Of a stretch of DNA of 64,000 nucleotides, positions 1,768 to 54,459 are shown in pieces (within the stretch, counting starts at the first letter, position 1; each line of letters opens with the position of its first letter). Origin of the DNA: Lytechinus variegatus (lineage: Eukaryota > Echinodermata > Echinoidea > Temnopleuroida > Toxopneustidae); NCBI RefSeq assembly GCF_018143015.1, contig NC_054747.1, positions 248,001-312,000 of the forward strand. Direction: 5' to 3'. The notes beneath the pieces were generated by a model. The model was not told the DNA's origin and searched no databases. It was given only the letters and a program-made list of their open reading frames with translations. A program made the translations under genes and the position numbers.

Positions 1768-1827
1768 CCTTATTATGTTTGCTGTCACTCTCAGGGTCAT
1801 TGCTCACTGGAGCTTCTTGCTCTTCAT
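1768..1827 (-). CDS. Gene A tail cassette exon, copy 9 (most 3')
   Basis: A 60-nt exon, phase 1-1, with acceptor CATTGGTAG and donor G|gtaagg. It encodes DEEQEAPVSNDPESDSKHNK when joined to the preceding G. It is acidic, rich in S, D and E, and has no tyrosine. Because length and phases are symmetric, any number of copies can be spliced in series without a frame change. The frame continues open past the donor for a while, but that sequence is intron. This is the last copy before the left edge; downstream exons are outside the window. Confidence 0.75.
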
Positions 1828-3071
1828 CTACCAATGAAAGACAACATTCAAAGTTATAATAATAATACTAATAATAAATATGTATATATATACATACATA
1901 TATATATATATATACATATATATATGAGAAACGAAGCTCACTTACAAAAGGGGTTAGTTCCATTTTTCATCAAATTTGATTTTCATGTCTCAATGTATAG
2001 ATTTTTAATAGCTCTATAAGATGATACCAAAAAATTGAAATTTCTATTAAAAAGATAACTAAAATGACGAAGAAAATTCCCTTTTGTTAAAGGGGTTAGG
2101 TCCATTTCAATTTAGTTGCAAAAGGGGATACGTTCACACATAATTTTTTTTTGGAAAAGAATATCTTAAAAATATGAAGACAGGTAGATTTCTCTAACAC
2201 CCAATTTTATGTTATCATAGTAGGGTATCATGCAAATTCAGTTTCGCATGAGAATATTGCTATATGGGAGAATTGAGGAAAACAATTTTCATGGAGTGGA
2301 CCCCTTTTGCAACCAAACTCTTCTGTTGAACCTATTTGTCAAAATGAGTTAGATCCATTTTTCATAAATTGTATTGTTCCTGTCTCTAAACCTCTAAACT
2401 TTCAGTCACCCTGATGATACCAAAGACAATTTGAAATTCAAATGAAAAGGTGAATGAAAGTGGCAAAGAAAATCACCTTTTTAATCGACAAAGATTGAAT
2501 TCATTTCAGTTTACTTGCAAAACGGGTTAGTTCCACAGTGATGATTGTTGAAAAAGATATAGAAAAAAAAGAAAACAAGTATATTTATTTTATACCCAAT
2601 TTTATGTTCTTCACATGATAGGGTAGTACATAATGACAATTTAGCTTTTTTTAAGACCATTGCAGTAAGTGAGAATACAAAAAAAAATGTTTTTTCTCGA
2701 AATGGAAAAAAGTGGAACTAACCCCTTTTGCAACTCAACTCTTCAAATAAAAATAAAGGACAAGTCTTGCAAAAACACCTTGATTTGCATGAAAAAAGGG
2801 AAAATCAATGGTTAAAACTAGAAACGTCATGAATATCGGAACTAGAAAGAAAATGATAATAACAAAATCTAGTTAAATTCCACCAAACTATTGACAATCG
2901 TAACCTGGTCACCACACAAATTAAGGATCCGATTACTGCATCCACTTTATATTTTTTAAAGAAATTTTTGTTAAACTATCATTCTTATGTATAAGGTGTA
3001 ATTATTTGTTTCATACGTTCTAGTTACAATTTGTTTACTGATAAAGTGCTTGAAACGCCAAATTTCCTTAC

Positions 3072-3131
3072 CCTTATTATGTTTGCTGTCACTCTCAGGG
3101 TCATTGCTCACTGGAGCTTCTTGCTCTTCAT
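3072..3131 (-). CDS. Gene A tail cassette exon, copy 8
   Basis: Identical in all 60 nt to the other eight copies, with the same acceptor and donor. The flanking intron differs slightly: the downstream read-through frame is broken here, while the exon and splice sites are intact. That favours the exon, and not a longer open frame, as the coding unit. Confidence 0.75.
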
Positions 3132-4366
3132 CTACCAATGAAAGACAACATTCAAAGTTATAATAATAATAATAATACTAATAATATATATATATATATA
3201 TATATACATATATATATGAGAAACGAAGCTCACTTACGAAAGGGGTTAGTTCCATTTTTCATCAAATTTGATTTTCATGTCTCAATGTATAGATTTTTAA
3301 TAGCTCTATAAGATGATACCAAAAAGTTGAAATTTCTATTAAAAAGATAACTTAAATGACAAAGAAAATTCCCTTTTGTTAAAGGGGTTAGGTCCATTTC
3401 AATTTAGTTGCAAAAGGGGATACGTTCACACATAATTTTTTTTTGGAAAAGAATATCTTACAAATATGAAGACAGGTAGATTTCTCTAACACCCAATTTT
3501 ATGTTATCATAGTAGGGTATCATGCAAATTCAGTTTCGCATGAGAATATTGCTATATGGGAGAAATGAGGAAAATAATTTTCATGGAGTGGACCCCTTTG
3601 CAACCAAACTCTTCTGTTGAACCTATTTGTCAAAATGAGTTAGATCCATTTTTCACAAATTGTATTGTTCCTGTCTCTAAACCTCTAAACTTTCAGTCAC
3701 CCTGATGATACCAAAGACAATTTGAAATTCAAATGAAAAGGTGAATGAAAGTGGCAAAGAAAATCACCTTTTTAATCGACAAAGATTGAATTCATTTCAG
3801 TTTACTTGCAAAACGGGTTAGTTCCACAGTGATGATTGTTGAAAAAGATATAGAAAAAAAAGAAGACAAGTATATTTATTTTATACCCAATTTTATGTTC
3901 TTCACATGATAGGGTAGTACATAATGACAATTTAGCTTTTTTTTTAAGACCATTGCAGTAAGTGAGAATACAAAAAAAAAATGTTTTTTCTCGAAATGGA
4001 AAAAAGTGGAACTAACCCCTTTTGCAACTCAACTCTTCAAATAAAAATAAAGGACAAGTCTTGCAAAAACACCTTGATTTGCATGAAAAAAGGGAAAATC
4101 AATGGTTAAAACTAGAAACGTCATGAATATCGGAACTAGAAAGAAAATGATAATAACAAAATCTAGTTAAATTCCACCAAACTATTGACAATCGTAACCT
4201 GGTCACCACACAAATTAAGGATCCGATTACTGCATCCACTTTATATTTTTTAAAGAAATTTTTGTTAAACTATCATTCTTATTGTATAAGGTGTAATTAT
4301 TTGATTCATACGTTCTAGTTACAATTTGTTTACTGATAAAGTGCTTGAAACGCCAAATTTCCTTAC

Positions 4367-4426
4367 CCTTATTATGTTTGCTGTCACTCTCAGGGTCATT
4401 GCTCACTGGAGCTTCTTGCTCTTCAT
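4367..4426 (-). CDS. Gene A tail cassette exon, copy 7
   Basis: Identical 60-nt phase 1-1 exon with the same splice sites. It sits 1295 bp from copy 8. The interval to copy 6 (1938 bp) is unusually long because one intervening unit has lost its exon. Confidence 0.75.
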
Positions 4427-4478
4427 CTACCAATGAAAGACAACATTCAAAGTTATAACAATAATAATAATACTAATA

Positions 4479-4509
<31 letters not shown>

Positions 4510-6304
4510 TATATGAGAAACGAAGCTCACTTACGAAAGGGGTTAGTTCCATTTTTCATCAAATTTGATTTTCATGTCTCAATGTATAGATTTTTAATAG
4601 CTCTATAAGATGATACCAAAAAGTTGAAATTTCTATTAAAAAGATAACTTAAATGACAAAGAAAATTCCCTTTTGTTAAAGGGGTTAGGTCCATTTCAAT
4701 TTAGTTGCAAAAGGGGATACGTTCACACATAATTTTTTTTTGGAAAAGAATATCTTACAAATATGAAGACAGGTAGATTTCTCTAACACCCAATTTTATG
4801 TTATCATAGTAGGGTATCATGCAAATTCAGTTTCGCATGAGAATATTGCTATATGGGAGAAATGAGGAAAATAATTTTCATGGAGTGGACCCCTTTGCAA
4901 CCAAACTCTTCTGTTGAACCTATTTGTCAAAATGAGTTAGATCCATTTTTCACAAATTGTATTGTTCCTGTCTCTAAACCTCTAAACTTTCAGTCACCCT
5001 GATGATACCAAAGACAATTTGAAATTCAAATGAAAAGGTGAATGAAAGTGGCAAAGAAAATCACCTTTTTAATCGACAAAGATTGAATTCATTTCAGTTT
5101 ACTTGCAAAACGGGTTAGTTCCACAGTGATGATTGTTGAAAAAGATATAGAAAAAAAAGAAGACAAGTATATTTATTTTATACCCAATTTTATGTTCTTC
5201 ACATGATAGGGTAGTACATAATGACAATTTAGCTTTTTTTTTAAGACCATTGCAGTAAGTGAGAATACAAAAAAAAAATGTTTTTTCTCGAAATGGAAAA
5301 AAGTGGAACTAACCCCTTTTGCAACTCAACTCTTCAAATAAAAATAAAGGACAAGTCTTGCAAAAACACCTTGATTTGCATGAAAAAAGGGAAAATCAAT
5401 GGTTAAAACTAGAAACGTCATGAATATCGGAAGTAAACTAGAAAGAAAATGGTAATAACAAATTCAGTTTCGCATGAGAATATTGCTATATGGGAGAAAT
5501 GAGGAAAATAATTTTCATGGAGTGGACCCCTTTTGCAACCAAACTCTTCTGTTGAACCTATTTGTCAAAATGAGTTAGATCCATTTTTCACAAATTGTAT
5601 TGTTCCTGTCTCTAAACCTCTAAACTTTCAGTCACCCTGATGATACCAAAGACAATTTGAAATTCAAATGAAAAGGTGAATGAAAGTGGCAAAGAAAATA
5701 ACCTTTTTAATCGACAAAGATTGAATTCATTTCAGTTTACTTGCAAAACGGGTTAGTTCCACAGTGATGATTGTTGAAAAAGATATAGAAAAAAAAGAAG
5801 ACAAGTATATTTATTTTATACCCAATTTTATGTTCTTCACATGATAGGGTAGTACATAATGACAATTTAGCTTTTTTTTAAGACCATTGCAGTAAGTGAG
5901 AATACAAAAAAAAATGTTTTTTCTCGAAATGGAAAAAAGTGGAACTAACCCCTTTTGCAACTTAACTCTTCAAATAAAAATAAAGGACAAGTCTTGCAAA
6001 AACACCTTGATTTGCATGAAAAAAGGGAAAATCAATGGTTAAAACTAGAAACGTCATGAAGATCGGAAGTAAACTAGAAAGAAAATGATAATAACAAAAT
6101 CTAGTTAAATTCCACCAAACTATTGACAATCGTAACCTGGTCACCACACAAATTAAGGATCCGATTACTGCATCCACTTTATATTTTTTAAAGAAATTTT
6201 TGTTAAACTATCATTCTTATTGTATAAGGTGTAATTATTTGATTCATACGTTCTAGTTACAATTTGTTTACTGATAAAGTGCTTGAAACGCCAAATTTCC
6301 TTAC

Positions 6305-6364
6305 CCTTATTATGTTTGCTGTCACTCTCAGGGTCATTGCTCACTGGAGCTTCTTGCTCTTCAT
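6305..6364 (-). CDS. Gene A tail cassette exon, copy 6
   Basis: Identical 60-nt phase 1-1 exon with CATTGGTAG acceptor and G|gtaagg donor. It borders the exon-less partial unit centred near 5.46 kb. Confidence 0.75.
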
Positions 6365-7604
6365 CTACCAATGAAAGACAACATTCAAAGTTATAATAAT
6401 AATAATAATACTAATAATATATATATATATATATATATACATATATATATGAGAAACGAAGCTCACTTACGAAAGGGGTTAGTTCCATTTTTCATCAAAT
6501 TTGATTTTCATGTCTCAATGTATAGATTTTTAATAGCTCTATAAGATGATACCAAAAAGTTGAAATTTCTATTAAAAGATAACTTAAATGACAAAGAAAA
6601 TTCCCTTTTGTTAAAGGGGTTAGGTCCATTTCAATTTAGTTGCAAAAGGGGATACGTTCACACATAATTTTTTTTTGGAAAAGAATATCTTACAAATATG
6701 AAGACAGGTAGATTTCTCTAACACCCAATTTTATGTTATCATAGTAGGGTATCATGCAAATTCAGTTTCGCATGAGAATATTGCTATATGGGAGAAATGA
6801 GGAAAATAATTTTCATGGAGTGGACCCCTTTTGCAACCAAACTCTTCTGTTGAACCTATTTGTCAAAATGAGTTAGATCCATTTTTCATAAATTGTATTG
6901 TTCCTGTCTCTAAACCTCTAAACTTTCAGTCACCCTGATGATACCAAAGACAATTTGAAATTCAAATGAAAAGGTGAATGAAAGTGGCAAAGAAAATCAC
7001 CTTTTTAATCGACAAAGATTGAATTCATTTCAGTTTACTTGCAAAACGGGTTAGTTCCACATTGATGATTGTTGAAAAAGATATAGAAAAAAAAGAAGAC
7101 AAGTATATTTATTTTATACCCAATTTTATGTTCTTCACATGATAGGGTAGTACATAATGACAATTTAGCTTTTTTTTAAGACCATTGCAGTAAGTGAGAA
7201 TACAAAAAAAAAATGTTTTTTCTCGAAATGGAAAAAAGTGGAACTAACCCCTTTTGCAACTTAACTCTTCAAATAAAAATAAAGGACAAGTCTTGCAAAA
7301 ACACCTTGATTTGCATGAAAAAAGGGAAAATCAATGGTTAAAACTAGAAACGTCATGAAGATCGGAAGTAAACTAGAAAGAAAATGATAATAACAAAATC
7401 TAGTTAAATTCCACCAAACTATTGACAATCGTAACCTGGTCACCACACAAACTAAGGATCCGATTACTGCATCCACTTTATATTTCTTTAAGAAATATTT
7501 TGTTAAACTATCATTCTTATTGTATAAGGTGTAATTATTTGATTTATACGTTCTAGTTACAATTTGTTTACTGATAAAGTGCTTGAAACGCCAAATTTCC
7601 TTAC

Positions 7605-7664
7605 CCTTATTATGTTTGCTGTCACTCTCAGGGTCATTGCTCACTGGAGCTTCTTGCTCTTCAT
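7605..7664 (-). CDS. Gene A tail cassette exon, copy 5
   Basis: Identical 60-nt phase 1-1 exon. The (AT)n tract beside this copy (about 7717-7802) is the longest in the array and explains the slightly larger 1351-bp spacing to copy 4. Confidence 0.75.
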
Positions 7665-7712
7665 CTACCAATGAAAGACAACATTCAATGTTATAATAAT
7701 AATAATAATACT

Positions 7713-7797
<85 letters not shown>

Positions 7798-8955
7798 TAT
7801 ATGAGAAACGAAGCTCACTTACAAAAGGGGTTAGTTCCATTTTTCATCATATTTGATTTTTATGTCTCAATGTATAGATTTTTAATAGCTCTATAAGATG
7901 ATACCAAAAAAGTTGAAATTTCTATTAAAAAGATAACTTAAATGACAAAGAAAATTCCCTTTTGTTAAAGGGGTTAGGTCAATTTCAATTTAGTTGCAAA
8001 AGGGGATACGTTCACACATAATTTTTTTTGGAAAAGAATATCTTAAAAATATGAAGACAGGTAGATTTCTCTAACACCCAATTTTATGTTATCATAGTCG
8101 GGTATCATGCAAATTCAGCTCCGCATGAGAATATTGCTATATGGGAGAATTGAAGAAAACAATTTTCATGGAGTGGACCCTTTTGCAACCAAACTCTTCT
8201 GTTGAACCTATTTGTCAAAATGAGTTAGATCCATTTTTCATAAATTGTATTGTTCCTGTCTCTAAACCTCTAAACTTTCAGTCACCCTGATGATACCAAA
8301 GACAATTTGAAATTCAAATGAAAAGGTGAATGAAAGTGGCAAAGAAAATCACCTTTTTAATCGACAAAGATTGAATTCATTTCAGTTTACTTGCAAAACG
8401 GGTTAGTTCCACAGTGATGATTGTTGACAAAGATATAGAAAAAAAAGAAGACAAGTATATTTATTTTATACCCAATTTTATGTTCTTTACATGATAGGGT
8501 AGTACATAATGACAATTTAGCTTTTTTTAAGACCATTGCAGTAAGTGAGAATACAAAAAAAAAATGTTTTTTCTCGAAATGGAAAAAAGTGGAACTAACC
8601 CCTTTTGCAACTTAACTCTTCAAATAAAAATAAAGGACAAGTCTTGCAAAAACACCTTGATTTGCATGAAAAAAGGGAAAATCAATGGTTAAAACTAGAA
8701 ACGTCATGAAGATCGGAAGTAAACTAGAAAGAAAATGATAATAACAAAATCTAGTTAAATTCCACCAAACTATTGACAATCGTAACCTGGTCACCACACA
8801 AACTAAGGATCCGATTACTGCATCCACTTTATATTTCTTTAAGAAATATTTTGTTAAACTATCATTCTTATTGTATAAGGTGTAATTATTTGATTCATAC
8901 GTTCTAGTTACAATTTGTTTACTGATAAAGTGCTTGAAACGCCAAATTTCCTTAC

Positions 8956-9015
8956 CCTTATTATGTTTGCTGTCACTCTCAGGGTCATTGCTCACTGGAG
9001 CTTCTTGCTCTTCAT
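8956..9015 (-). CDS. Gene A tail cassette exon, copy 4
   Basis: Identical 60-nt phase 1-1 exon with intact splice sites. The surrounding unit is nearly identical to copies 3 and 5. Confidence 0.75.
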
Positions 9016-9071
9016 CTACCAATGAAAGACAACATTCAAAGTTATAACAATAATAATAATACTAATAATAA

Positions 9072-9102
<31 letters not shown>

Positions 9103-10259
9103 TATATGAGAAACGAAGCTCACTTACAAAAGGGGTTAGTTCCATTTTTCATCATATTTGATTTTTATGTCTCAATGTATATATTTTTAATAGCTCTATA
9201 AGATGATACCAAAAAAGTTGAAATTTCTATTAAAAAGATAACTAAAATGACAAAGAAAATTCCCTTTTGTTAAAGGGGTTAGGTCAATTTCAATTTAGTT
9301 GCAAAAGGGGATACGTTCACACATAATTTTTTTTGGAAAAGAATATCTTAAAAATATGAAGACAGGTAGATTTCTCTAACACCCAATTTTATGTTATAGT
9401 AGGGTATCATGCAAATTCAGTTTCGCATGAGAATATTGCTATATGGGAGAATTGAGGAAAACAATTTTCATGGAGTGGACCCCTTTTGCAACCAAACTCT
9501 TCTGTTGAACCTATTTGTCAAAATGAGTTAGATCCATTTTTCATAAATTGTATTGTTCCTGTCTCTAAACCTCTAAACTTTCAGTCACCCTGATGATACC
9601 AAAGACAATTTGAAATTCAAATGAAAAGGTGAATGAAAGTGGCAAAGAAAATCACCTTTTTAATCGACAAAGATTGAATTCATTTCAGTTTACTTGCAAA
9701 ACGGGTTAGTTCCACAGTGATGATTGTTGAAAAAGATATAGAAAAAAAAGAAGACAAGTATATTTATTTTATACCCAATTTTATGTTCTTCACATGATAG
9801 GGTAGTACATAATGACAATTTAGCTTTTTTTTAAGACCATTGCAGTAAGTGAGAATACAAAAAAAAAATGTTTTTTCTCGAAATGGAAAAAAGTGGAACT
9901 AACCCCTTTTGCAACTTAACTCTTCAAATAAAAATAAAGGACAAGTCTTGCAAAAACACCTTGATTTGCATGAAAAAAGGGAAAATCAATGGTTAAAACT
10001 AGAAACGTCATGAAGATCGGAAGTAAACTAGAAAGAAAATGATAATAACAAAATCTAGTTAAATTCCACCAAACTATTGACAATCGTAACCTGGTCACCA
10101 CACAAACTAAGGATCCGATTACTGCATCCACTTTATATTTCTTTAAGAAATATTTTGTTAAACTATCATTCTTATTGTATAAGGTGTAATTATTTGATTC
10201 ATACGTTCTAGTTACAATTTGTTTACTGATAAAGTGCTTGAAACGCCAAATTTCCTTAC

Positions 10260-10319
10260 CCTTATTATGTTTGCTGTCACTCTCAGGGTCATTGCTCACT
10301 GGAGCTTCTTGCTCTTCAT
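10260..10319 (-). CDS. Gene A tail cassette exon, copy 3
   Basis: Identical 60-nt phase 1-1 exon with intact splice sites. It is the last unit of the near-identical intron type before the two diverged units on the gene-proximal side. Confidence 0.75.
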
Positions 10320-10375
10320 CTACCAATGAAAGACAACATTCAAAGTTATAACAATAATAATAATACTAATAATAA

Positions 10376-10406
<31 letters not shown>

Positions 10407-11553
10407 TATATGAGAAACGAAGCTCACTTACAACAGGGGTTAGTTCCATTTTTCATCAAATTTGATTTTTATGTCTCAATGTATAGATTTTTAATAGCTC
10501 TATAAGATGATACCAAAAAAGTTGAAATTTCTATTAAAAAGATAACTAAAATGACAAAGAAAATTCCCTTTTGTTAAAGGGGTTAGGTCCATTTCAATTT
10601 AGTTGCAAAAGGGGATACGTTCACACATAATTTTTTTGGAAAAGAATATCTTAAAAATATGAAGACAGGTAGATTTCTCTAACACCCAATTTTATGTTAT
10701 CATAGTAGGGTATCATGCAAATTCAGTTTCGCATGAGAATATTGCTATATGGGAGAATTGAGGAAAACAATTTTCATGGAGTGGACCCCTTTTGCAACCA
10801 AACTCTTCTGTTGAACCTATTTGTCAAAATGAGTTAGATCCATTTTTCATAAATTGTATTGTTCCTGTCTCTAAACCTCTAAACTTTCAGTCACTCTGAT
10901 GATACCAAAGACAATTTGAAATTCAAATGAAAAGGTGAATGAAACTGGCAAAGAAAATCACTTTTTTTAATCGATAAAGATTGAATTCATTTCAGTTTAC
11001 TTGCAAAAGAGGTTAGGTCCACAGTGATGATTGTTGAAAAATATGTAGAAAAAAAGAAGACAAGTAAATATCTTTTATTTCCAATTTTATGTTCACATGA
11101 TAGGGTAGTACATCACGACAATGTAGTTTCTCTTAAGACTATTGCAGTGAGAATAAAAAAACATGATTTTTCTCGAAATGGTAAAAAGTAGACCTAACCC
11201 CTTTTGCAACTAAATTCTTCAAATCAAAATAAAGGACAAGTCTACCAAAAAACTGGTTGATCTCCATGAAAAAAAAATCGTTAAAACTAAAAACATCATG
11301 AAGATCGGAAGTAAACTAGAAAAAAAACCTTATAATAACAAAATCTAGTTAAATTCCACTGAACCATTGACAATCGTAACCTGGTCACCACACAAATTAA
11401 GGATCCGACTAATGCATCCACTTTATATTTCTTTAAGAAATATTTTGTTAAACTATCATTCTTAATATATCAGATTTAATTATTTGACTTCATATGTTCT
11501 AGTTACAATTTGCTTAATACTGATGAAATGCTTGAAACGCCAAATTTCCTTAC

Positions 11554-11613
11554 CCTTATTATGTTTGCTGTCACTCTCAGGGTCATTGCTCACTGGAGCT
11601 TCTTGCTCTTCAT
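11554..11613 (-). CDS. Gene A tail cassette exon, copy 2
   Basis: Identical 60-nt phase 1-1 exon. The intron on its 3' side (about 10.9-11.55 kb) is clearly diverged from that of copies 3-9 and matches copy 1, yet the exon and roughly 30 nt on each side are unchanged. Confidence 0.75.
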
Positions 11614-11669
11614 CTACCAATGAAAGACAACATTCAAAGTTATAACAATAATAATAATACTAATAATAA

Positions 11670-11700
<31 letters not shown>

Positions 11701-12846
11701 TATATGAGAAACGAAGCTCACTTACAACAGGGGTTAGTTCCATTTTTCATCAAATTTGATTTTTATGTCTCAATGTATAGATTTTTAATAGCTCTATAAG
11801 ATGATACCAAAAAAGTTGAAATTTCTATTAAAAAGATAACTAAAATGACAAAGAAAATTCCCTTTTGTTAAAGGGGTTAGGTCCATTTCAATTTAGTTGC
11901 AAAAGGGGATACGTTCACACATAATTTTTTTTGGAAAAGAATATCTTAAAAATATGAAGACAGGTAGATTTCTCTAACACCCAATTTTATGTTATAGTAG
12001 GGTATCATGCAAATTCAGTTTCGCATGAGAATATTGCTATATGGGAGAATTGAGGAAAATAATTTTCATGGAGTGGACCCCTTTTGCAACCAAACTCTTC
12101 TGTTGAACCTATTTGTCAAAATGAGTTAGATCCATTTTTCATAAATTGTATTGTTCCTGTCTCTAAACCTCTAAACTTTCAGTCACCCTGATGATACCAA
12201 AGACAATTTGAAATTCAAATGAAAAGGTGAATGAAAGTGGGAAAGAAAATCACTTTTTTTAATCGATAAAGATTGAATTCATTTCAGTTTACTTGCAAAA
12301 GAGGTTAGGTCCACAGTGATGATTGTTGAAAAATATGTAGAAAAAAAGAAGACAAGTAAATATCTTTTATTTCCAATTTTATGTTCACATGATAGGGTAG
12401 TACATCACGACAATGTAGTTTCTCTTAAGACTATTGCAGTGAGAATAAAAAAACATGATTTTTCTCGAAATGGTAAAAAGTAGACCTAACCCCTTTTGCA
12501 ACTAAATTCTTCAAATCAAAATAAAGGACAAGTCTACCAAAAAACTGGTTGATCTCCATGAAAAAAAAATCGTTAAAACTAAAAACATCATGAAGATCGG
12601 AAGTAAACTAGAAAAAAAACCCTTATAATAACAAAATCTAGTTAAATTCCACTGAACCATTGACAATCGTAACCTGGTCACCACACAAATCAAGGATCCG
12701 ACTAATGCATCCACTTTATATTTCTTTAAGAAATATTTTGTTAAACTATCATTCTTAATATATCAGATGTAATTATTTGACTTCATATGTTCTAGTTACA
12801 ATTTGCTTAATACTGATGAAATGCTTGAAACGCCAAATTTCCTTAC

Positions 12847-12906
12847 CCTTATTATGTTTGCTGTCACTCTCAGGGTCATTGCTCACTGGAGCTTCTTGCT
12901 CTTCAT
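12847..12906 (-). CDS. Gene A tail cassette exon, copy 1 (most 5')
   Basis: Identical 60-nt phase 1-1 exon. The array stops just beyond it at about 12950. It shares the diverged intron type with copy 2, so these two are probably the older units from which the rest were amplified (inference). Confidence 0.75.
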
Positions 12907-13447: not shown

Positions 13448-13516
13448 CTTTATCTTGATTAGTATTACCAGAGACAGAAATTAGAGGATGCCTTTCTCTA
13501 TCTTCCGGCATGATCT
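13448..13516 (-). CDS. Gene A tail exon, single copy
   Basis: A 69-nt exon, phase 1-1, with acceptor ttcgatttttag and donor AAAG|gtaagg. Joined to the preceding G it reads E-I-M-P-E-D-R-E-R-H-P-L-I-S-V and ends S-G-N-T-N-Q-D-K. Charge pattern, size and phase resemble the 60-nt cassette. It connects in frame from the TM exon and into the tandem array. Confidence 0.6.
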
Positions 13517-13978
13517 CTAAAAATCGAAAACGGTATAATTATATTTATTACTTAAGTAAGGGACAGGAATGAGGGGACGATATATTTTCATTTTGGTGTG
13601 AGATTTTACATTTCATTGGAATGAAACAAAAATAAATGAGCAAGTTCCTGAGCTTTATATGCGAGTATATCAACGCATCACTGTATTGTCATTAAGTGAT
13701 TATCAAACATTGGGATTGGGTTCAAAAAGCCTAAAATGTCTAAGCATTCATACTTTTTAAAGCTGCAATGAAAGTATAATGTCATGTGGGTAATCAAATA
13801 TGCGGCAACACACTTTTGTTGTTGAATTCCACGAAACATTGGCATGCGTACCTAGGTCGACATGCATCACAGGGATCCGATTTTTGCATTTATTCAATAC
13901 CTCTTTAACAAAGTTTCTTTTAAAATTATATGAGATACTATTATTTTACTTATTTCTCTCTAGCTCCAATTTGCTTAC

Positions 13979-14070
13979 GTCCTGGAAATACTGATTTTCC
14001 TTATCATCATCAAGTTTCCTTTCAGTGAAAGGTTCACTTCTTGCTCCTGTTTTTAACTGGATACCTTCCA
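13979..14070 (-). CDS. Gene A possible alternative tail exon (relative of the cassette)
   Basis: The acceptor gtgtttttcag is good and the reading frame joins the TM exon (V-E-G-I-Q-L-K-T-G-A-R-S-E-P-F-T). The surrounding 300 bp align by eye with the 1.3-kb unit (shared GGATCCGAT and flanking words), so this is a diverged relative of the cassette exon. The donor at the expected place is lost. The nearest good donor (GAC|gtaagc) leaves phase 0, which does not fit the next exon. If read through, the frame stops at 13946 and would give an alternative short tail. It is either a decayed cassette or an alternative terminal exon. Confidence 0.35.
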
Positions 14071-14852: not shown

Positions 14853-15002
14853 CTGTTCCCGCGTCTTTATTTTGCTTTCGTCGCCTGAATTTGATGACCA
14901 TGACGCCGATGGCAACTATGGCGACTAATAATATTAATGGACATACCACTATCGCAGCGATTATACCACCATTCAGAGTCTCGTTCTTTGGATCGGGTTC
15001 AT
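14853..15002 (-). CDS. Gene A transmembrane exon
   Basis: A 150-nt phase 1-1 exon (acceptor gtacctttag, donor ACAG|gttagt). It encodes a short acidic stalk (D-E-P-D-P-K-N-E-T with an N-glycosylation sequon), a hydrophobic helix of about 24 residues (G-G-I-I-A-A-I-V-V-C-P through V-M-V-I), then the stop-transfer K-F-R-R-R-K. This sets a type I topology with the Ig domains outside. It matches the gene B TM exon (31659-31772) in position and phase. Confidence 0.85.
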
Positions 15003-15384: not shown

Positions 15385-16226
15385 CTGTCATGCCCGAGAG
15401 CGGCAGNNNNNNNNNNNNNNNNNNNNNNNNNNNNNNNNNNNNNNNNNNNNNNNNNNNNNNNNNNNNNNNNNNNNNNNNNNNNNNNNNNNNNNNNNNNNNN
15501 NNNNNNNNNNNNNNNNNNNNNNNNNNNNNNNNNNNNNNNNNNNNNNNNNNNNNNNNNNNNNNNNNNNNNNNNNNNNNNNNNNNNNNNNNNNNNNNNNNNN
15601 NNNNNNNNNNNNNNNNNNNNNNNNNNNNNNNNNNNNNNNNNNNNNNNNNNNNNNNNNNNNNNNNNNNNNNNNNNNNNNNNNNNNNNNNNNNNNNNNNNNN
15701 NNNNNNNNNNNNNNNNNNNNNNNNNNNNNNNNNNNNNNNNNNNNNNNNNNNNNNNNNNNNNNNNNNNNNNNNNNNNNNNNNNNNNNNNNNNNNNNNNNNN
15801 NNNNNNNNNNNNNNNNNNNNNNNNNNNNNNNNNNNNNNNNNNNNNNNNNNNNNNNNNNNNNNNNNNNNNNNNNNNNNNNNNNNNNNNNNNNNNNNNNNNN
15901 NNNNNNGATCCATGCTTCAACTGACACTGCCGTGTGCTGCCTTCCTTCAGCAGACACAAATGAGGCGTTGCAGGTTAAGTTCCTTGATTGGGTGACCTCA
16001 ATGCGCAGACTCAGATTGGTGATTACGTCACTGTTGAAGGTTTCACCATAAGAGGATGATACTGATTTGCCATCTTGGTACCAGGTAAGGACTGCTTCCT
16101 TTACAGGATACACATTGAAGAGTGTGCAGGTTAGAGAGAATGTGTCATTGGCTTGAGCTGTACAGAGCGTGGATTCACCAATCATGGCGCAGGGAGAAAC
16201 AACTGGAAGGGTACTAGGGCGAAGTG
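15385..16226 (-). CDS. Gene A second Ig domain exon (contains assembly gap)
   Basis: From acceptor tttaatttag the frame reads T-L-R-P-S-T, a cysteine-bearing lead, LTCTLFNVYPVKEAVLTWYQ-D-G, several N-glycosylation sequons, and a second core cysteine in NLTCNASFVS. The first Cys with N-V-Y-P and the W-Y-Q-D-G strand resemble C1-set Ig domains. Coding enters the N run at 15906. On the other side 15385-15406 ends with ...S-G-M-T before donor ACAG|gtattc in phase 1, so it could be the end of the same exon if the gap hides little sequence. The gene B equivalent is 336 nt. Confidence 0.7.
15407..15906. other. Assembly gap (500 N)
   Basis: Exactly 500 N, a conventional placeholder length, so the true size is unknown. 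It falls inside or just after the second Ig exon of gene A, and coding sequence abuts it on both sides. Confidence 0.99.
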
Positions 16227-16779
16227 CTAAATTAAACATAATAAAGAGGCACTTGATCAAATATTAATTCCACATTGATACAACAAATAGCTTAACGCTA
16301 TGATTTTGATGACGATAGTAAACCTATATGGATAAACAACCGATTGCAACTCTAGCTAACAGCATCATTTTTGCAATTGCAAATGTAATGTCCCCTTCCA
16401 TTCCTAATACAAAAAACATTTATCGCTGTTATTATCATTGCAATTGTCTTTACGTATAATATAGAACGATGGCTCAATTCTTTAATACTGATATTATTTA
16501 AAAATGTTCCTTTGAATCAGTGACAATCCACATTCGGATTATCCTCAAAATTACATTTCATTGTCAACTGTCATGAAGGGCCATTTCAAGTATGACGTTT
16601 AAAAATGTAGACCTGTTAAATCTCTTGCCTCAGTGTGGTAGATCTTTGGACATGTTGGATGAAGTCGTGCGTGTTTACATCCAACAAAAAGGAAGATGTG
16701 CACTTATTCATGTGTTGCTTTTAATATAGACAATACACCTTAAAGATATTTGAAAGTAAAATAAAGCAAAGAACCTTAC

Positions 16780-17133
16780 TGTAAATATTCAGATCAGAAT
16801 AGATGTGAAGAACCGCCGGTTGTCCTTGTCGGTCCACATCGCATCGATAGGTCCCCTCATCATCGACGGTTATGCCTTTGAGAGATAGTGTGTTATTGTC
16901 ATTCTGCAAAGTTGCACGACCTATATATGGTGGTGCCACTGTCAAGTCTCCCTTTGCGAGTGTGAGGATCCTCTGCCATGACTGCGCAGTGTTAAAGTAC
17001 CAATATATATTACGTAAAGTGCCATCCTCGAAGAGACATGTTATATTAGTCTCGCCGCCGACTGTTGCAGACAGTTCTTGTGTGGGTTTAGCGACGGTGA
17101 TCGATGCACAGGCCGATAATACTATGAAAATCG
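16780..17133 (-). CDS. Gene A V-type Ig domain exon (with end of signal peptide)
   Basis: A 354-nt phase 1-1 exon (acceptor ataccatttccag, donor TACA|gtaagg). It begins with the hydrophobic end of the signal peptide (I-F-I-V-L-S-A-C-A-S). The V-like domain follows: T-V-G-G-E-T-N-I-T-C (B strand Cys), N-I-Y-W-Y (C strand Trp), and VDDEGTYRCDVDR (the D-x-G-x-Y-x-C F strand). Gene B has the same domain, 57% or so similar by eye, but split by an intron. This is the likely ligand-binding head. Confidence 0.85.
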
Positions 17134-17522
17134 CTGGAAATGGTATAAAACAACAACGGAGAAAATGACGATAGACCTTATGCATATGAATTCACAATAT
17201 GTAGCGCCCTCCCTCAGAGGATACAGGAATACATGTAACCAGAATTGTCAGAGATACGCCAGCTGCAGATAACCAAGTCATTCAAGGCACTGGCATCAGC
17301 CGTTAAGTGGGCGTCGCAATGAGGTCAATATCAAAAGGTGTAGAATAATGACACCAATCATTATGGTAACTATAATTTCATATTGAAAAAAAATGATTCC
17401 CCTAAAGAGGTTAGTCAGCATTGACTATCCTTCATGCGGAGAAGTTTATGCAAATATCATGATAAAAATAGGTTCTGCGATAACATTTGACATATACGGA
17501 TAAGCATTTTTCCCTTCATTAA

Positions 17523-29287: not shown

Positions 29288-29550
29288 TCAATTGTTGTTA
29301 AATGAACCATCAGCACCAGCGTTCTTGAGGGCGTCTACTAGATCCCGTATCTGGGCTGTCCTAGGTGTCTTCTTCCTCCATTCCAGGAGCATTGCCAAAG
29401 TCCCTGAACGGTCACCACGGTCTTTGTTCATGTTGAGGTACTGGTTAACCTTGAACTGCCTGAAGCCAAAGTTGATGCCAAGCTGTTCGATGGCCTCTGC
29501 ATCATGGATGTTGTCGGCTAGCTCAAACAATCTCTTATCTGTAACTCCAG
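29288..29550 (-). CDS. Gene B exon 8: second Death domain and stop
   Basis: Acceptor taactttcag, phase 1. The frame encodes A-G-V-T-D-K-R-L-F-E-L-A-D-N, the F-G-F-R-Q-F-K-V-N-Q core, M-L-L-E-W (the conserved helix-5 Trp), L-V-D-A-L, and ends D-G-S-F-N-N-N before TGA. The six-helix Death-fold pattern is clear. It is a diverged duplicate of the domain in exon 7: both have the unusual F/I-R-Q-F-K-x-N-Q string. A CARD is less likely because of the M-L-x-x-W motif. Confidence 0.8.
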
Positions 29551-30161
29551 CTGAAAGTTAAGGGCAATTAATGATACGTTGGGGACAATTAATGGTGGAC
29601 AATGTATATTATTGCAATCATGGATTCGATGGTAATAGTTTTTGACCCATCTGAATTAGGGGTGGGAACAGGAATGAATTAACGGGAGAAGGCAGAGAAA
29701 TAATCAAGCATGTTCCGCATCACCGAGGTTTTCAGCCAAGACTAGAAGAACTGGTTAAATTCATCATAATCTGGGACCAATTAAAAATTTCGTTTTGAGC
29801 GATAAAAAGTTTATATGCGTTATCATTATACATTAATTCTTGGTGCTCTTAAGAATCAGGAAATGTATTTACTGGTCTAAACCAATCGCATTTCGAGTCT
29901 AAAAATTAAATTCTCTTTTCAAAATGGGAGCTCAAAATACCATTGCCATGAATGCGACGTCCCCAGACTTGCTCCTAAAATAGAGTGACGTTATCTCTAA
30001 TTTGCTGTTCAAGTTAGGAAAAATTATTTTATTTCGACTTTACCTGAATCATATAAATTGAACCAAAGAAATATAGGAGTACATAACAAAATGTGTGTAT
30101 CAAACTGTAAGTGGTAAGTTAAAACCATTAAATCTTGGAGTCGCCTATTTTTACTTCTCAC

Positions 30162-30434
30162 CTTCGTTCGGAAAGTATTCCTTTATCAGGTTCTCCATAT
30201 CCGACTGTTCCAGAGCCTTCACCATCTTGGGGACTTGCTTGGCTGCGGGTGTCTTCTCCTTCCAGGTGAACAGCATGGATGTGGCGGGGAAGACGTCTTT
30301 GGCCTGCTCGTTCTCCTTGAGGATTTGATTCAACTTGAACTGTCGAATCCCAAGATGTCGACCAAGCTTCGACAGGTCGCTTTCGTCCGTCACTTCCTCG
30401 GCGATGCTGGCCAGTATTTCATCATCGATGCTAC
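30162..30434 (-). CDS. Gene B exon 7: first Death domain
   Basis: A 273-nt phase 1-1 exon (acceptor tctgaattcag, donor GAAG|gtgaga). It encodes G-S-I-D-D-E-I-L-A-S-I-A-E-E-V, L-G-R-H-L-G-I-R-Q-F-K-L-N-Q (helix 2-3), M-L-F-T-W-K-E-K-T-P (helix 5 with the conserved Trp), M-V-K-A-L-E-Q-S and D-M-E-N-L-I-K-E-Y-F. This is a full-length Death domain of about 85 residues in a single exon. Being symmetric in phase, it is easily duplicated, which explains the second copy. Its first residues complete the second YGSI motif with exon 6. Confidence 0.85.
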
Positions 30435-31000
30435 CTGAATTCAGATTCAGTGCCAAAAGAAAGCCGAAACATTACAGTGTTCTTTATGCTAAGTCTTTAA
30501 AGTTATTGTTTTCCTTATCATTTCGAAAGAATAATGCATATTGTATTCAACACCCCTTTCATAGTGTCATGTATGTTAACATCCCTCGTCGACTACTTTA
30601 ACAATATTTTGAAGAAAAAAATCTACAGCGCAAAGATAGTATTCTCATTTTTGCAAAATGCTCATTGTTAAAATCCTAATTGATCAAAATACTTTTTCTT
30701 ACAACCAAATAAACTGAAAATTGTTTCCAATTTAAGAATTATAGCTGACATATTTAAGTGTTCATTTGAATACTAATGATACTTATAATATACCGCTTTT
30801 TATACAGCACTTAATACATCCACAAAGTCAGATGCCAGCAAAATTTAATGTGCTCTTCCTAAGACAGATCGACATTTGCAATGTCGTGTTGGCCGAAGTA
30901 ATCACTTTAGAATGAATAAACCATCTAAACCATGTATATTTACGACAAGGTATTATTGAAAAAAGAAAAAAAAAATAATAAATAAGGCCAATTGTCCTAC

Positions 31001-31063
31001 CGTAAACTTTGTCACCAAGCTCTACCTTTTCAGTTGGTTTTATCTCTCCGTACTGTCCATTAG
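31001..31063 (-). CDS. Gene B exon 6: juxtamembrane ITAM-like linker
   Basis: A 63-nt phase 1-1 exon (acceptor ttttaatacag, donor TACG|gtagga). It reads A-N-G-Q-Y-G-E-I-K-P-T-E-K-V-E-L-G-D-K-V and ends in Y. Spliced to exon 7 it gives Y-G-E-I, twelve residues, Y-G-S-I: an ITAM-type spacing made across a splice junction. In size and phase it occupies the same position as the tail cassettes of gene A. Confidence 0.7.
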
Positions 31064-31658
31064 CTGTATTAAAAAAAAAAGTTAAAACATCGGTTTCCTA
31101 TGGGTCATATGATAAATACGCACATTAGTTCATACTGTATCATTCCAACAAAATTGAAGGATTGTTATGAGTTATCCCTGGCGCCATCATCATTCTACTT
31201 AAATGATGGCACAGTGAAATTGATTGTGAAATTCTTGAATCCTCTGTCTATAGCTGAGTGAAAATTCCCTACTCATAATAACTGTGACCTACCACCCCCA
31301 AACCACACCAATAAGTCGCCAGGTTAAGTTCTCTGTACATAGCCAAAATAGTTATTTTGTCTCAAAAAACCCCACATTAATAAAAATAAGTATCTAAAAG
31401 AACAATTGGTTTGGTTTGGTTTTATTTACCGTATAAGAATCACAATAAAATACATTGCAAAAGATATGATACTAAATATAAATATGTAAACATGCACATA
31501 AAAATATACGGATGGATCACTCTATTCAGAGCTATTGATATAATGGCTCTGTTCTCCCTAGAGGTCCAATATTCTTCTTCATACTGTGAAAATTTGAAGC
31601 CGTAAAGTGGAATAAAAGAAAAGATACAGTCAAGTGAACACAACGAGTTGTAAGGTAC

Positions 31659-31772
31659 CTTCAAGTCTTCGATTCCTTCTTCTCCTCACGATTGCAATGA
31701 TTACAATCACTACGATCACAGCCAGCACTACGACTATAGGTACCACGATCTTCACAGGATCAATCAGGGAAC
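31659..31772 (-). CDS. Gene B exon 5: transmembrane segment
   Basis: A 114-nt phase 1-1 exon (acceptor cattccgtag, donor GAAG|gtacct). It encodes G-S-L-I-D-P-V-K, a Val/Ile-rich helix of about 22 residues, then R-R-R-R-N-R-R, a strong stop-transfer. It corresponds to gene A 14853-15002. Confidence 0.85.
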
Positions 31773-32142
31773 CTACGGAATGGAACAATGATAAGTAAGT
31801 TATATCATTGAAAGTGAAATTACATTTTGATGCTGGCGAACAAGGTCATTTACAGATATATTGCTTTCATGTAAAAAAGATACTTTTTTCTACTGATTTT
31901 TATTGGTTTTACTTTTTGGAAGGCCATTTTAAAATTACATGTTGAATATTTACAACTTGATCTCACTTGCTTAGGTAGACCATGCACAGAGATAACTTCA
32001 AAACAGACTTGAAATAAATGTGAATTCGATTGCGAATGTATCACTTAATGTTATGAAATGCATGAAGTACATGTACGTAGGCTTCTAAATGGAAAAAAAA
32101 CATGGTGAAGTTTAAAATGGTGAATCGGATACACTGACTGAC

Positions 32143-32478
32143 CTGTATCACTCGTTTCTAGTATGGTGAGTGAAATAGAGGCTGAAGTTTGTTCGATACC
32201 ATATGCAGAGAGATACGATGCCTTGCACAACCATTCCCCTGTCTCGAACGCGTCAACATTGGTTTCCAGGTCAATACTACCATCCTCTTTGGTTTCAGAC
32301 ATCAAAAAGGCAGCCTCCAACGGACCACGACCATCTTGGTACCAGCCAAGCGAGAGATCGGTTATCGGGTATACATTGGCTAACTGACAGGTAAGGTTGG
32401 TAGGTCCCTCACTAGTAAGTGTGCAGGGTGAACTGTTTGGCTGTTCTTGGAGACACTGCCGAATCACCGGAGGAGTTC
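32143..32478 (-). CDS. Gene B exon 4: C1-like Ig domain
   Basis: A 336-nt phase 1-1 exon (acceptor cttatctccag, donor ACAG|gtcagt). It starts G-T-P-P-V-I-R-Q-C-L-Q-E, then LTCQLANVYPITDLSLGWYQ-D-G and T-G-E-W-L-C-K-A-S-Y. The B-strand Cys with N-V-Y-P before the Trp strand is reminiscent of C1-set domains (C-x-x-x-G-F-Y-P ... W). Two further cysteines near the start (Q-C-L and S-P-C-T) are shared with gene A. Confidence 0.8.
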
Positions 32479-32903
32479 CTGGAGATAAGACTGAGTTAGG
32501 TTTACAACAATGAGAAAACAAGAAATAAGGCATTTTTGTGTTTCTTCTGAGCATCAACATGTTCAAGGCCAATAGTATTAACAAAAAATCGACACAGGAC
32601 CAGGTATCTCTCTGACGTTAAATTCAATGACGGCCCATGGGTCGTTTTGCAGTCAATTTCATTGGTGTAACGGTACGATAATCAATGATAAAACTGCGTG
32701 GGAACGAGATTTTCATATTTTTGTGAATCTTACTCCTGTCGCTTGTCTTCGGTCTCCGATCAGTCAGTTTGTTTGCTTTTTTATAATATAAAAAAAGTAT
32801 TGAGAGAAACAACCAACATGGTCTCATATCTGTCCATCGAAAATACACTTTACTCGATATGTAAGCGTCCTGCCGACAACATTCGTTCATTTATGATATA
32901 AAT

Positions 32904-33181
32904 GGAGCGTTGTGGCCCAGTGGATTAGTCTTCGGACTTTCAAACACAGGGTCGTTGGTTCGAATCCCAGCCATGGCGTAATTTCCTTCAGCAAGAAACT
33001 GATCCACAGTGTGCTGCACTCAACCCAGGTGAGGTAAATGGGTACCGGTACGAAGTAATTCCTTTAAAAACCGTGTGCGCTATGAACGCCTAGCTTAGCC
33101 AGGTAATATAGGAGCGCCTTGAGCACCTAACAGGGTGGATATGTGCGCAATATAAATACCCTATATAATATATTATTATTG
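32904..33181 (+). mobile_element. tRNA-derived SINE, copy 1
   Basis: The head carries an A box (TGGCCCAGTGG) and a perfect B box (GGTTCGAATCC) with appropriate spacing. A body with CAGCAAGAAA and GAGGTAAATGGGTACC follows, then an AT-rich end (ATATTATTATT). It is in the gene B intron between exons 3 and 4, antisense to the gene. Confidence 0.8.
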
Positions 33182-33437
33182 AAAATATCAGCTGACAATC
33201 ATGTGTTTACATAATTCTGGCATAATGTTTACAAACATTTTTTCCACTAAAAATTGAATGTCTATGATTCATTAGGAACCCTATTGCTGTTCTCTCTATG
33301 TTCGGCTTGGGGACTATCATAACAGTACTAATGTATGAGGATCAGTCACATGACTGTAGACTGTCATGTAAATTGCTACATGCAAAAACGCATCTTGCTG
33401 TACGTGGTTTGTATGTTCGTATCATACTTATACCTAC

Positions 33438-33534
33438 CAAAGACACTCAATGTAGTAGTGATATTCAATAGCGTCGGCTGTCCTAGTCTGTCAACATTGC
33501 AACGATATGTTCCTTCATCATCGATGGTCACTTC
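33438..33534 (-). CDS. Gene B exon 3: V-type Ig domain, second part
   Basis: A 97-nt exon, phase 0 to 1 (acceptor gccttttag, donor TTTG|gtaggt). It encodes EVTIDDEGTYRCNVDRLGQ and then P-T-L-L-N-I-T, the F and G strands with the second core Cys. Gene A has this part fused to the first in one exon. Confidence 0.8.
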
Positions 33535-34164
33535 CTAAAAGGCGAAAGAAATATATATGCGACCGTCTTACAGTCTAGACCAATCAAACCCACTAGTAAA
33601 AATAGTACAAACTATAGTCTGTATTAATTTTGAATCGGGGAGGGGGGCAGCTTGTTTGTGCATATACACATGAACTAAAGATTAAGCATAAACGTCTTCG
33701 AAATTCCACAAAAAAGAAACGTTACATCGTTCCTGATACCATGAAATTTCAAAAGAATTTGGTAAAATCATATAAACACCGCTGCTCCAACATTTTTTCA
33801 TATTGTAATACCTATACACTATTTGATGTCTTTATATTTTTTGATGAGGAAAGGTGTTTTCTGAGGCAATGCCAAGTATTGAATGTGTTTGCCAGGTGTA
33901 AAGTTATAATCGCCTGGTGACTACCATTATTGTCACAATCACCTAAATAAAAGTATGCACAGACTCACGGCACGGAGTCCTATACCATTGATTGTTTGAC
34001 TATATTCCATAAGTGTAAATCTAGTTTCATGTGGAATACTTTCGAAAAATCGTCATTTCATTAAAAAAGGAGGAGTATCTTGGTCAACAGTGCATTACCC
34101 TCATGTATCCTTGAAATAATTGTTTCGACGGAAATCATTATAAAGTACTTGACCCCATAGATAC

Positions 34165-34424
34165 CTGAAGAATTAATGTTGAGTTGTCCTTATCCAAGCC
34201 AGCTCTGTATGTATAGGGTTCATGTATTACTTCAACATACTTAGCAAGACTTAAAATCCTTCGGTGTCCAGATGCATCATGGTAGTACCAGGAGATGTTT
34301 CGTACAGCGCCCTCATCGAACGGACATGGTATCCTGGCTGTACCACCAACGGTAATGGACACATCGGATGTTGTTTCCGATAAGCTGGCAGACAAACAGC
34401 TGAGCATTACTGTCAGACGAATAG
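34165..34424 (-). CDS. Gene B exon 2: signal peptide end and V-type Ig domain, first part
   Basis: A 260-nt exon, phase 1 to 0 (acceptor taatgttgacag, donor TTCAG|gtatct). After the hydrophobic L-T-V-M-L-S-C-L-S-A-S-L-S-E comes V-S-I-T-V-G-G-T-A-R-I-P-C (B-strand Cys) and N-I-S-W-Y-Y-H (C-strand Trp), then N-S-T-L-I-L-Q (E strand), where the intron cuts the domain. Reading past the donor gives a stop shortly after. Confidence 0.8.
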
Positions 34425-34470
34425 CTGTCAACATTAAACATTCAAAGATAATAATATGGCGTCGTGGTGA

Positions 34471-34712
34471 TTGGGGACGTCGTGGTCTAGTGGTTATGAC
34501 TCTCGTCTTTTACTCTGAGGGACATGGGTTCGATTCCCAGCCATGGCGTGTCATTTCTTTCAGCAAGAAATTTACCTACATTGTGCTGCATTCAACCCAG
34601 CTGAGGTAAATGGGTACCAGTATTCAGTTATTCCTCATAAAGCTCTGCACACCAAATTTTGTAGACTATCTTAGCTGGTGTAATTGGTGGATACATGAGC
34701 TCTATAAATCCA
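34471..34712 (+). mobile_element. tRNA-derived SINE, copy 2
   Basis: Same family as 32904-33181: A box TGGTCTAGTGG, B box GGTTCGATTCC, shared body words CAGCAAGAAA and GAGGTAAATGGGTACC. It lies in intron 1 of gene B, antisense, just 5' of the exon 2 acceptor. The two copies differ by many substitutions, so they inserted separately long ago. Confidence 0.8.
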
Positions 34713-37150: not shown

Positions 37151-38000
37151 GGTCATTTTCTTTTAGAAATGCACGTCGACATAGACGACTGATGACGTCA
37201 TTTTTTGGTGTTCCATATGCCTCAGATCCTCACACACGCCCACTATCAGAATCGAAAACCTCGCCACATCCATTTTGCGGTTCTCCGCAAAGTGGTGGAC
37301 GTAGTGGTGGGCGTAGTGGACGTACACGTTAGTGACGTCATTTTAGCCGTTCAAGCCCGGCATGAAGATGAACCTTTCCTTTTTAAAACACAGTTTTCAG
37401 TGACTTTTCACAAACTTAATGCAAGTTTACGATGCAATATGTCCATCATATTTGAAATTGCTTTCTGATATCCAAAATATATATCGATATAAATCCTAAC
37501 TCGCGTAAAAAAAGAATAAAGGCAAGTGAAAGGGCAAGTGTGCACAAGTTGCACCTTTGCATCACCCGACCGGGTCGCCAGGCGATGGTACACCTGATCT
37601 TTCGGGTCGGGCAGCGTGTCATGACCCGCTGGTTATCGCGCTGTTTCACGTGGACGTACGTACACGTACAAGTCGAGTGAAATCTGAAGTATTCGCATCT
37701 GTAGTGAAAAAGGGCAGATGACGACGTTGACTCGAATGATCAGACAACTGCTACGTCGTTCTCGTTCACTGCTCCTAAAAATCTCTATTAATGATATTTG
37801 TTTTTCTCGGAATTTAAGAAGTGTTCCGAAGTTTACTTAAGATTCATCAACATTGCATCAGGTTGATAACAGTTATGTGCGAGGATTATTTAAATTTTTA
37901 CCGTTTGCATTATCTTTTTTTATTTGCATGAAAGATCTTCCCTTTTGCAAATACCCCTCTTCTCTTGAGATTTCTTCTTAATCTTAAACGACTGAGTATA

Positions 38001-48874: not shown

Positions 48875-48936
48875 TGCATAATGTTTGTGTTTTACATATC
48901 CAGTTTTCTTTCAGGTATTTCAAGTGACCTCTGCAG

Positions 48937-49320
48937 GGGGTCCTTACCCGTCAGAGGATAGGAAGCTCTGCCAGCAAAGCGAGGTGGATGCATGCAGGAG
49001 ACTCGGCTTCCGCAACATCTCCATGAGTGACATATTCGGTTTGTTTGTCCCTCAGAGCGGGATCGCGGATGCAGTAAATCACATGATGCCTCTAGTTGAT
49101 ACCGGGTGCTCCCGGGACCTTCTTGCTCTGATCTGCGGTGCCTATCATCCACCGTGTGACCATGAGACGGGGGAGAGGATGCCCCCATGCAGGGACGCCT
49201 GCAGGAAGATCATCAACCAGAAGTGCAAAGGACAGTTGAAGCGTTTGGGATTCCGGTCAGAGGAAGTCTTGCAATGCAGGAACTACCCTTCCAAAAGACA
49301 GGAGAGGCGATGTCTGAACG
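48937..49320 (+). CDS. Gene C: Frizzled-type cysteine-rich domain 1
   Basis: Ten cysteines in the Frizzled-CRD order: K-L-C, D-A-C-R-R-L-G-F-R-N-I-S, D-T-G-C-S, L-I-C-G-A-Y-H-P-P-C, M-P-P-C-R-D-A-C, Q-K-C, L-Q-C and R-R-C. It ends in donor AACG|gtaggt, phase 1. The acceptor cctctgcag (exon from 48937) keeps the phase 1 rule of the gene. The stronger-looking acceptor ttttctttcag would start it at 48915 in phase 0. The spacing before the third Cys is as expected for the family. Confidence 0.8.
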
Positions 49321-49599
49321 GTAGGTGGAGGTCAATTTTTTTCATAGAACCATCCTTTGTTTTTTTTCGCTCTGTATCCGCCTCTCTCTCTCTTCCTAAA
49401 ACAAAGTGCAACCCTACTTTCGCTTACCATACAACTAGTTGGGGTTTTTAGTCGTGCAAAGCCCGTGATAATTCCGTGCAAATACCATGCAGAGATCTTA
49501 CAATGTCCTTACGATTTATTAAATGACTATGATCCCACGAAAAAAAACATATTGACAGAAAAACTCAAGACATCGCTGAGCATATACTCTATAGTAATA

Positions 49600-49980: not shown

Positions 49981-50035
49981 TGGAAGACAAATATAATTGT
50001 TTTAATTTATTTGTGTACTTTTCGCTCTTTTTTAG

Positions 50036-54226: not shown

Positions 54227-54459
54227 GTAAATTAAAATAGCAAAACAAGTACAAAATCAACAGCAATAACAAAAAGCAATGGGTTTCCAGCTTGATGTTC
54301 ATTGTTCCCTGTCTTTCGCAATTCATATTTTTTTCCTATGAGATTCTCTTCTTTTTAAATCGACATTACAAAGCGCTACCAGTTATTAGTATGTTGTTTT
54401 CCTTTTCACTATTTTTATTTTCATTATAATTGGCATTAGTATTAATATTCAAAGAGTTT

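Follow-up and report, generated by a model that had tools for sequence, protein, structure and literature searches.

The chicken BG genes, which belong to the butyrophilin family, code for immunoglobulin (Ig) membrane proteins with a tail built from many small repeat exons (PMC5938342, PMC4046983). As far as the accounts of BG tails in these papers go, the exons are mostly 21 nt long, varied in sequence and 27 to 37 in number depending on the gene and haplotype; they encode heptads of a presumed coiled coil in a protein with one Ig domain, and splicing alters the tail (PMC5938342). For BG1, the part of PMC4046983 on tail exons implies a role for their number in resistance to certain viruses. 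The mammalian butyrophilins, as the same two sources outline them, have two Ig domains, a transmembrane (TM) segment, few heptad repeats and a C-terminal B30.2 domain. Tandem copies of one exon form a class described in PMC9013439, together with mutually exclusive clusters, in which a single copy is used to the exclusion of the others. Here, we analyzed 64,000 nt of the genome of the sea urchin Lytechinus variegatus (NCBI RefSeq assembly GCF_018143015.1, contig NC_054747.1; the window, C8:248001-312000), which carry nine identical copies of a 60-nt exon. We hold, with a little more confidence than doubt, that these exons would form an acidic spacer in the tail of a receptor of the IgV-IgC-TM type (gene A), placed before a Death domain and set in length mainly by the genomic copy number.

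Nine identical 60-nt exons lie in tandem

The exon occurs nine times, always on the minus strand, with 0 mismatches over 60 nt in every copy. Delimited by sequence identity and GT-AG boundaries, the copies lie at 12847-12906 (copy 1), 11554-11613 (copy 2), 10260-10319 (copy 3), 8956-9015 (copy 4), 7605-7664 (copy 5), 6305-6364 (copy 6), 4367-4426 (copy 7), 3072-3131 (copy 8) and 1768-1827 (copy 9). The copy-to-copy spacings are 1293, 1294, 1304, 1351, 1300, 1938, 1295 and 1304 nt. An initial annotation of this DNA had described nine identical, phase-symmetric exons, each in its own 1.3-kb unit. Identity and symmetry are borne out, and so is the place of the exons, with boundaries that the GT-AG sites move by one base. 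The 1.3-kb unit holds for seven of the eight spacings and fails for the 1938-nt one. Here, a 1.9-kb spacer (4427-6304) follows copy 6, and comparison with the other units shows that it runs through unit positions to 899 and then through 258-1304, i.e. a unit plus a partial, exon-less repeat.

One copy codes for 20 residues, 7 of them acidic. The exon is in phase 1-1, its first D codon GAT being split as G / AT, and stops are present in both other frames; no copy is disabled. All nine copies share the splice context ...tctttcattggtag / ATGAAG...AATAAGG / gtaaggaa. Compared with the U1 consensus, the donor agrees at 7 of 9 positions, and the donors of four other gene A exons at 6 to 8. A retained array intron would end the tail early, as the frame closes about 24 to 114 codons past the exon. 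Nine adjacent identical exons on one strand, recognized as exons by their splice sites and context, qualify as a tandem exon duplication, the class treated in PMC9013439, and with 60 nt and phase 1-1 any number of them can be joined in frame.

Searching the whole genome (869,567,369 bases, 33 contigs) for the exon pattern with up to 3 mismatches, we found 9 places, all within the array, and the reversed-pattern control gave 0. A protein search at E up to 10 returned the same nine places alone. Neither the pattern search nor the protein search found a single-copy ancestral form of the exon elsewhere in the genome. Recurrent plus-strand open reading frames (ORFs) of 55-89 aa across the array were considered as a plus-strand gene and rejected, being the complement of the exon and its flank. 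An Rfam scan of the window at gathering scores gave no match.

The array follows the transmembrane exon of an Ig-domain gene

On the minus strand, the exon order is IgV, IgC, TM, a 69-nt exon and the nine 60-nt copies. The IgV exon (16780-17185; Pfam V-set, E 4.6e-9) carries a Met at 17185 and, by eye, a likely signal peptide; its ORF ends in phase 1 at a GTAAGG donor. The first part of the second Ig exon (15907-16226; Ig_2, E 4e-5; 24.2 bits, cut-off 27) has an ATTTAG acceptor and runs into a gap of 500 N (15407-15906). When the gap flanks were joined with no missing base, they gave 320+22=342 nt, in frame and with a GT donor; thus, little or nothing may be missing in the gap. Frame and donor place the probable 3′ end of this exon at 15385-15406, 22 nt followed by gtattc. 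ORFs and splice sites define the TM exon (14853-15002, 150 nt, DEPDPKNETLNGGIIAAIVVCPLILLVAIVAIGVMVIKFRRRKQNKDAGT) and the juxtamembrane tail exon (13448-13516, 69 nt, EIMPEDRERHPLISVSGNTNQDK). The latter includes ERHPLI, which we take to be a motif of the acidic dileucine type. The TM, 69-nt and 60-nt exons all have lengths divisible by 3 and are in phase 1-1. Lying downstream of a TM exon in an Ig-domain gene, the array occupies the cytoplasmic tail, as had been annotated.

A 125-nt possible alternative last exon (13946-14070; VEGIQLK...RNK, then a stop) lies ahead of the array. It has only weak or wrong-phase donors, and an AATAAA stands at about 13894, some 50 nt past the stop. This exon is possibly the last one of a short-tail isoform without the array. 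In the genome, the TM exon has no other match better than E 0.4 (further matches E 0.4 and 6.9), and the 69-nt, 125-nt and 60-nt exons match nothing but themselves.

A Death-domain-like exon downstream may end the tail

A Death-domain-like exon lies 6.9 kb beyond the array and outside the window; it has a phase-1 acceptor and runs from C8:242894 downward on the minus strand. The TM exon, the 69-nt exon, the array and this exon all stand on one N-free stretch (C8:212592-263406). The joined frame of gene A with all nine exons and the Death-like exon gives 608 residues, then TAA. The initial annotation put the array in the cytoplasmic tail; with such an exon downstream, a spacer within that tail is likelier than the tail end.

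We propose that gene A would encode an Ig-superfamily receptor with a signal peptide, IgV, IgC, one TM segment, the juxtamembrane exon, the nine-exon array and the Death-like exon. Included by default, the repeated exons would supply 20 x n residues, (DEEQEAPVSNDPESDSKHNK)n, as an acidic and probably unstructured spacer that separates the membrane from the Death domain. Because the copies are identical and their splice sites ordinary, we expect all of them to be spliced in, with a tail length that follows the copy number. We infer that gene A is transcribed and that the Death-like exon belongs to it; the tail length would then be governed mainly by the unit number on the allele.

The Death-like exon has relatives at 92 or more other places in the genome (150 of 164 candidates scored), many of them on C6 and C8. 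We aligned 10 members drawn from the genome matches, gene A's included. With a threshold of E up to 1, six of the ten matched Pfam Death, the lowest E being 7.1e-6, and four did not; the relative L053, 58% identical to the exon of gene A, reached 25.6 bits against a cut-off of 22.6. When the profile of the family was compared with the PDB, 7 of 9 matches were Fas or RIPK1 death domains (E 0.0095-0.12), Fas being the best. An AG acceptor is present at the exon start in 8 of the 10 members, five in phase 2 and three, including that of gene A, in phase 1; the exon is thus usually spliced on to something upstream.

The strongest argument for the order Ig-Ig-TM-spacer-Death in gene A is that its paralog gene B (29288-34509, minus strand) has that order. 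Gene B reads Ig-Ig-TM (114 nt)-tail exon (63 nt)-Death-Death on one strand, with phase 1 at the junctions from the TM through the second Death domain. Both Death domains are above the Pfam cut-off (7.4e-8 and 1.8e-6), and the Ig domains are assigned through their relation to gene A (IgV 39% identity; IgC 32%, E 4e-11). The Death exon of gene A is 37% identical to the second Death domain of gene B over 57 aa. The TM and Death exons would be separated by 203 coded residues in gene A (n=9) versus 21 in gene B.

Several observations weigh against our reading. The Ig half of gene A is joined to the tail half only across the 500-N gap, that is, by the scaffold. The Ig regions of gene B are under the Pfam cut-offs, and its IgV is split over two exons, while that of gene A is unsplit. 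Taken alone, the Death exon of gene A has no match to Pfam Death (PF00531), only HRDC at 0.068. It has a Met three codons in, common to its four closest relatives, and two of those four (L049 and L050) lack the AG acceptor. For two of these relatives, we read by eye the ORFs of 38-40 aa or more in the roughly 10 kb upstream and recognized no Ig or TM exon; one of the two upstream stretches holds a 500-N gap.

The Death-like exon could thus begin a separate gene, judging by that conserved Met, the two missing acceptors and the lack of recognized Ig or TM exons near those relatives. The receptor tail would then end in another, unrecognised last exon past the array. Against this stand the phase-1 acceptor, a location that shares both strand and gap-free stretch with the array, the acceptors in most of the members examined, and the adjoining Ig-Ig-TM-Death-Death paralog. 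We consider a separate Death gene unlikely, though the likeliest of the rival explanations.

Beside gene B, we noticed an inverted block in which 20173-42259 of the window corresponds to C8:1700516-1680027, 1.4 Mb away, mostly at 91-94% identity. It includes a near copy of gene B (C8:1686135-1691791, inverted; blocks 92.6-94.3% identical), and the block is either a segmental duplication or a retained haplotype. The gene A part of the inverted duplication (15907-17520) is only 82% identical. A diverged paralog, A′ at C8:1714770, shows 83% aa identity to gene A. In both, the sequence breaks off at one and the same position of the second Ig exon (C8:1715999; window 15907), where GATC is followed by a 500-N gap; this may be a scaffolding feature of the assembly. 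Searching 70 kb around A′ for the TM, 69-nt, 125-nt and 60-nt exons, we found no match better than E 0.25.

No visible handle for a choice among the exons

The initial annotation had suggested a length-tunable or mutually exclusive tail that would act as a splicing-based dosage device. In a tunable tail, cells would use alternative splicing to include more or fewer exons, adjusting the distance or valency of the Death domain as required. By length and phase, the frame survives the inclusion of anything from 0 to 9 copies, and alternative splicing is described for the many-small-exon tails of BG in PMC5938342. On the other side, splice sites of equal, ordinary strength and similar introns offer no visible handle for choosing a number, and nothing in them hints at regulated skipping. 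We therefore find a dosage device unsupported and a splicing-tuned length rather improbable.

Mutual exclusion finds no support in this array. The copies of mutually exclusive exons usually differ in sequence. Among the nine copies here, 0 of 60 positions differ and the splice sites are alike, so a choice between them changes nothing.

The exon and its splice sites are the longest invariant run

The introns of the units have diverged to different extents. Their substitution differences are 0.24% between units 6 and 7, 0.49% between units 1 and 2, and up to 8.8% otherwise; units 1-2 differ from the remaining units by 5-9%. Between units 1-2 and units 3, 4, 5, 7 and 8, we counted 55 fixed substitutions and 28 gap columns. 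Across the eight full units, 94 of 1264 columns are variable, and none of these is among the 60 exon columns (hypergeometric P 0.0086). With gap columns left out, the longest invariant run is 109 nt, from -24 to +25 around the exon, and takes in the exon and both splice sites. The longest run inside the intron is 79 nt in the eight full units and 49 nt in nine. Such a pattern is what one expects where a coding exon and its splice sites are under selection, for which it gives modest support.

Other counts pull in the opposite direction. The P value is itself modest, and of the 60-column windows in the intron, 24 of 1145 are likewise invariant among the eight full units; these windows overlap and are not independent. 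After the ninth, truncated unit was added (columns in at least 8 units), 4 of 1146 intron windows were without a variable site. Recent gene conversion could also keep the exons alike.

These data bear on another explanation, in which the array is a functionless intronic tandem repeat. Its exons would be skipped, or the gene dead, and their identity would come from recent duplication and conversion. Some units are indeed young, as the two closest pairs show; one unit carries the partial exon-less repeat, the last unit breaks off at another repeat, and the candidate last exon, with its stop and AATAAA, precedes the array. Speaking for function, the longest invariant run falls on the exon and splice sites across groups of units 5-9% apart in their introns, the 60-nt exons are in frame and phase-matched to the TM and Death exons, and 0 of 9 copies is disabled. 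We regard a functionless array as doubtful.

The unit probably multiplied together with a dispersed repeat

The intron after copy 8 contains a repeat that resembles a miniature inverted-repeat transposable element (MITE) at 1935-2749, with inverted ends TGAAGAG...CTCTTCA in its dispersed copies. This 815-bp repeat is whole in units 1-8 and cut short in unit 9. It has at least 39 other places in the genome at 80-85% identity, the units of the window not being among the matches listed. At 8 dispersed loci, the longest match to the unit spans 378-1205 at most and excludes the exon. Only 43 nt of the intron preceding copy 1 match the unit. Most likely, repeated unequal crossing-over produced head-to-tail duplicates of one tail exon and its 3′ intron with the MITE. 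At the other end, the last unit breaks off beside a different repeat (208-981), found by sequence comparison to be 91% identical to C8:1681853-1682615. The 3′ border of the array is disturbed by this repeat, another point that our reading has to carry.

An assembler that stacked one unit repeatedly, or units from two haplotypes, is a very improbable source of the array. The inverted duplicated block, a possible retained haplotype elsewhere and the near-identity of units 6 and 7 would allow it, but the array is without any N and sits on about 51 kb of gap-free sequence, and it is not a single block repeated in assembly because the introns of its units differ, as the fixed substitutions and gap columns record. 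A single unit multiplied by the assembler, the artefact that the initial annotation had raised, is thus unlikely. A Pfam Bindin match (E 4e-66; in 0 of 14 control genomes) marks the genome as that of a sea urchin and not a fish. As a side observation, bindin occurs twice on C13 (18.60 and 24.95 Mb), 98% identical over 3.3 kb, possibly as a retained haplotype. The assembly may therefore hold retained haplotypes, and the array copy number could be off.

Other features of the window

On the plus strand, 48882-54237 contains two Frizzled-type cysteine-rich regions (Pfam Fz 2.8e-17 and 1.1e-6, the latter just below the cut-off), with threonine/asparagine-rich ORFs nearby. An open frame of 784 codons at 37988-40342, plus strand, matches reverse transcriptase at 1.8e-6 (just below the cut-off) and weakly GIY-YIG (0.041); it is presumably Penelope-like. 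At its place, the inverted copy has a shorter, different stretch.

Discussion

The chicken BG genes are the nearest precedent for gene A. Comparing by Pfam domain class alone, we find in gene A what characterizes the butyrophilin/BG group, namely an Ig V domain, a TM segment and a tail of repeat exons. The details differ. In place of 21-nt heptad exons of varied sequence, gene A has exactly identical 60-nt exons with a 20-residue repeat, 7 residues of it acidic, set in 1.3-kb units and predicted to form an acidic spacer. It has two Ig domains and a probable Death-like domain; to our knowledge, the chicken BG protein has no Death domain. With the mammalian butyrophilins, gene A would share an architecture of two Ig domains, a TM segment, repeats and a C-terminal domain, with a Death-like domain where they have B30.2.

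The death receptors (Fas/TNFRSF) offer a second likeness, being TM proteins with a cytoplasmic Death-like domain, and Fas was the best PDB match of our profile. Their extracellular part consists of cysteine-rich TNFR repeats, whereas gene A has Ig domains instead. In the titles and abstract openings that we searched, which take in few subscription journals and so give a weak negative, we found no sea urchin receptor with an array of identical exons and no urchin Ig-TM-Death receptor.

We infer from the DNA that all nine exons enter the tail and that spacer length matters to the receptor. A bolder idea, which we put forward as speculation and think unlikely, is that the array acts as a germline 'ruler' in a signalling receptor. 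Alleles would differ by whole 20-residue acidic spacers, kept exact by selection or conversion as the introns drift, giving a heritable length polymorphism in how far the Death domain reaches under the membrane, how it is spaced or how it clusters. Perhaps this length would be further tuned by splicing and by the short-tail isoform with its early last exon.

If the exons are used, gene A would offer a natural length series from the membrane anchor to the Death domain, made of identical modules. Alleles of different n would test whether the assembly and signalling of Death-domain receptors depend on linker length. A sea urchin receptor would then have converged with the chicken BG genes on long tails built from repeat exons.

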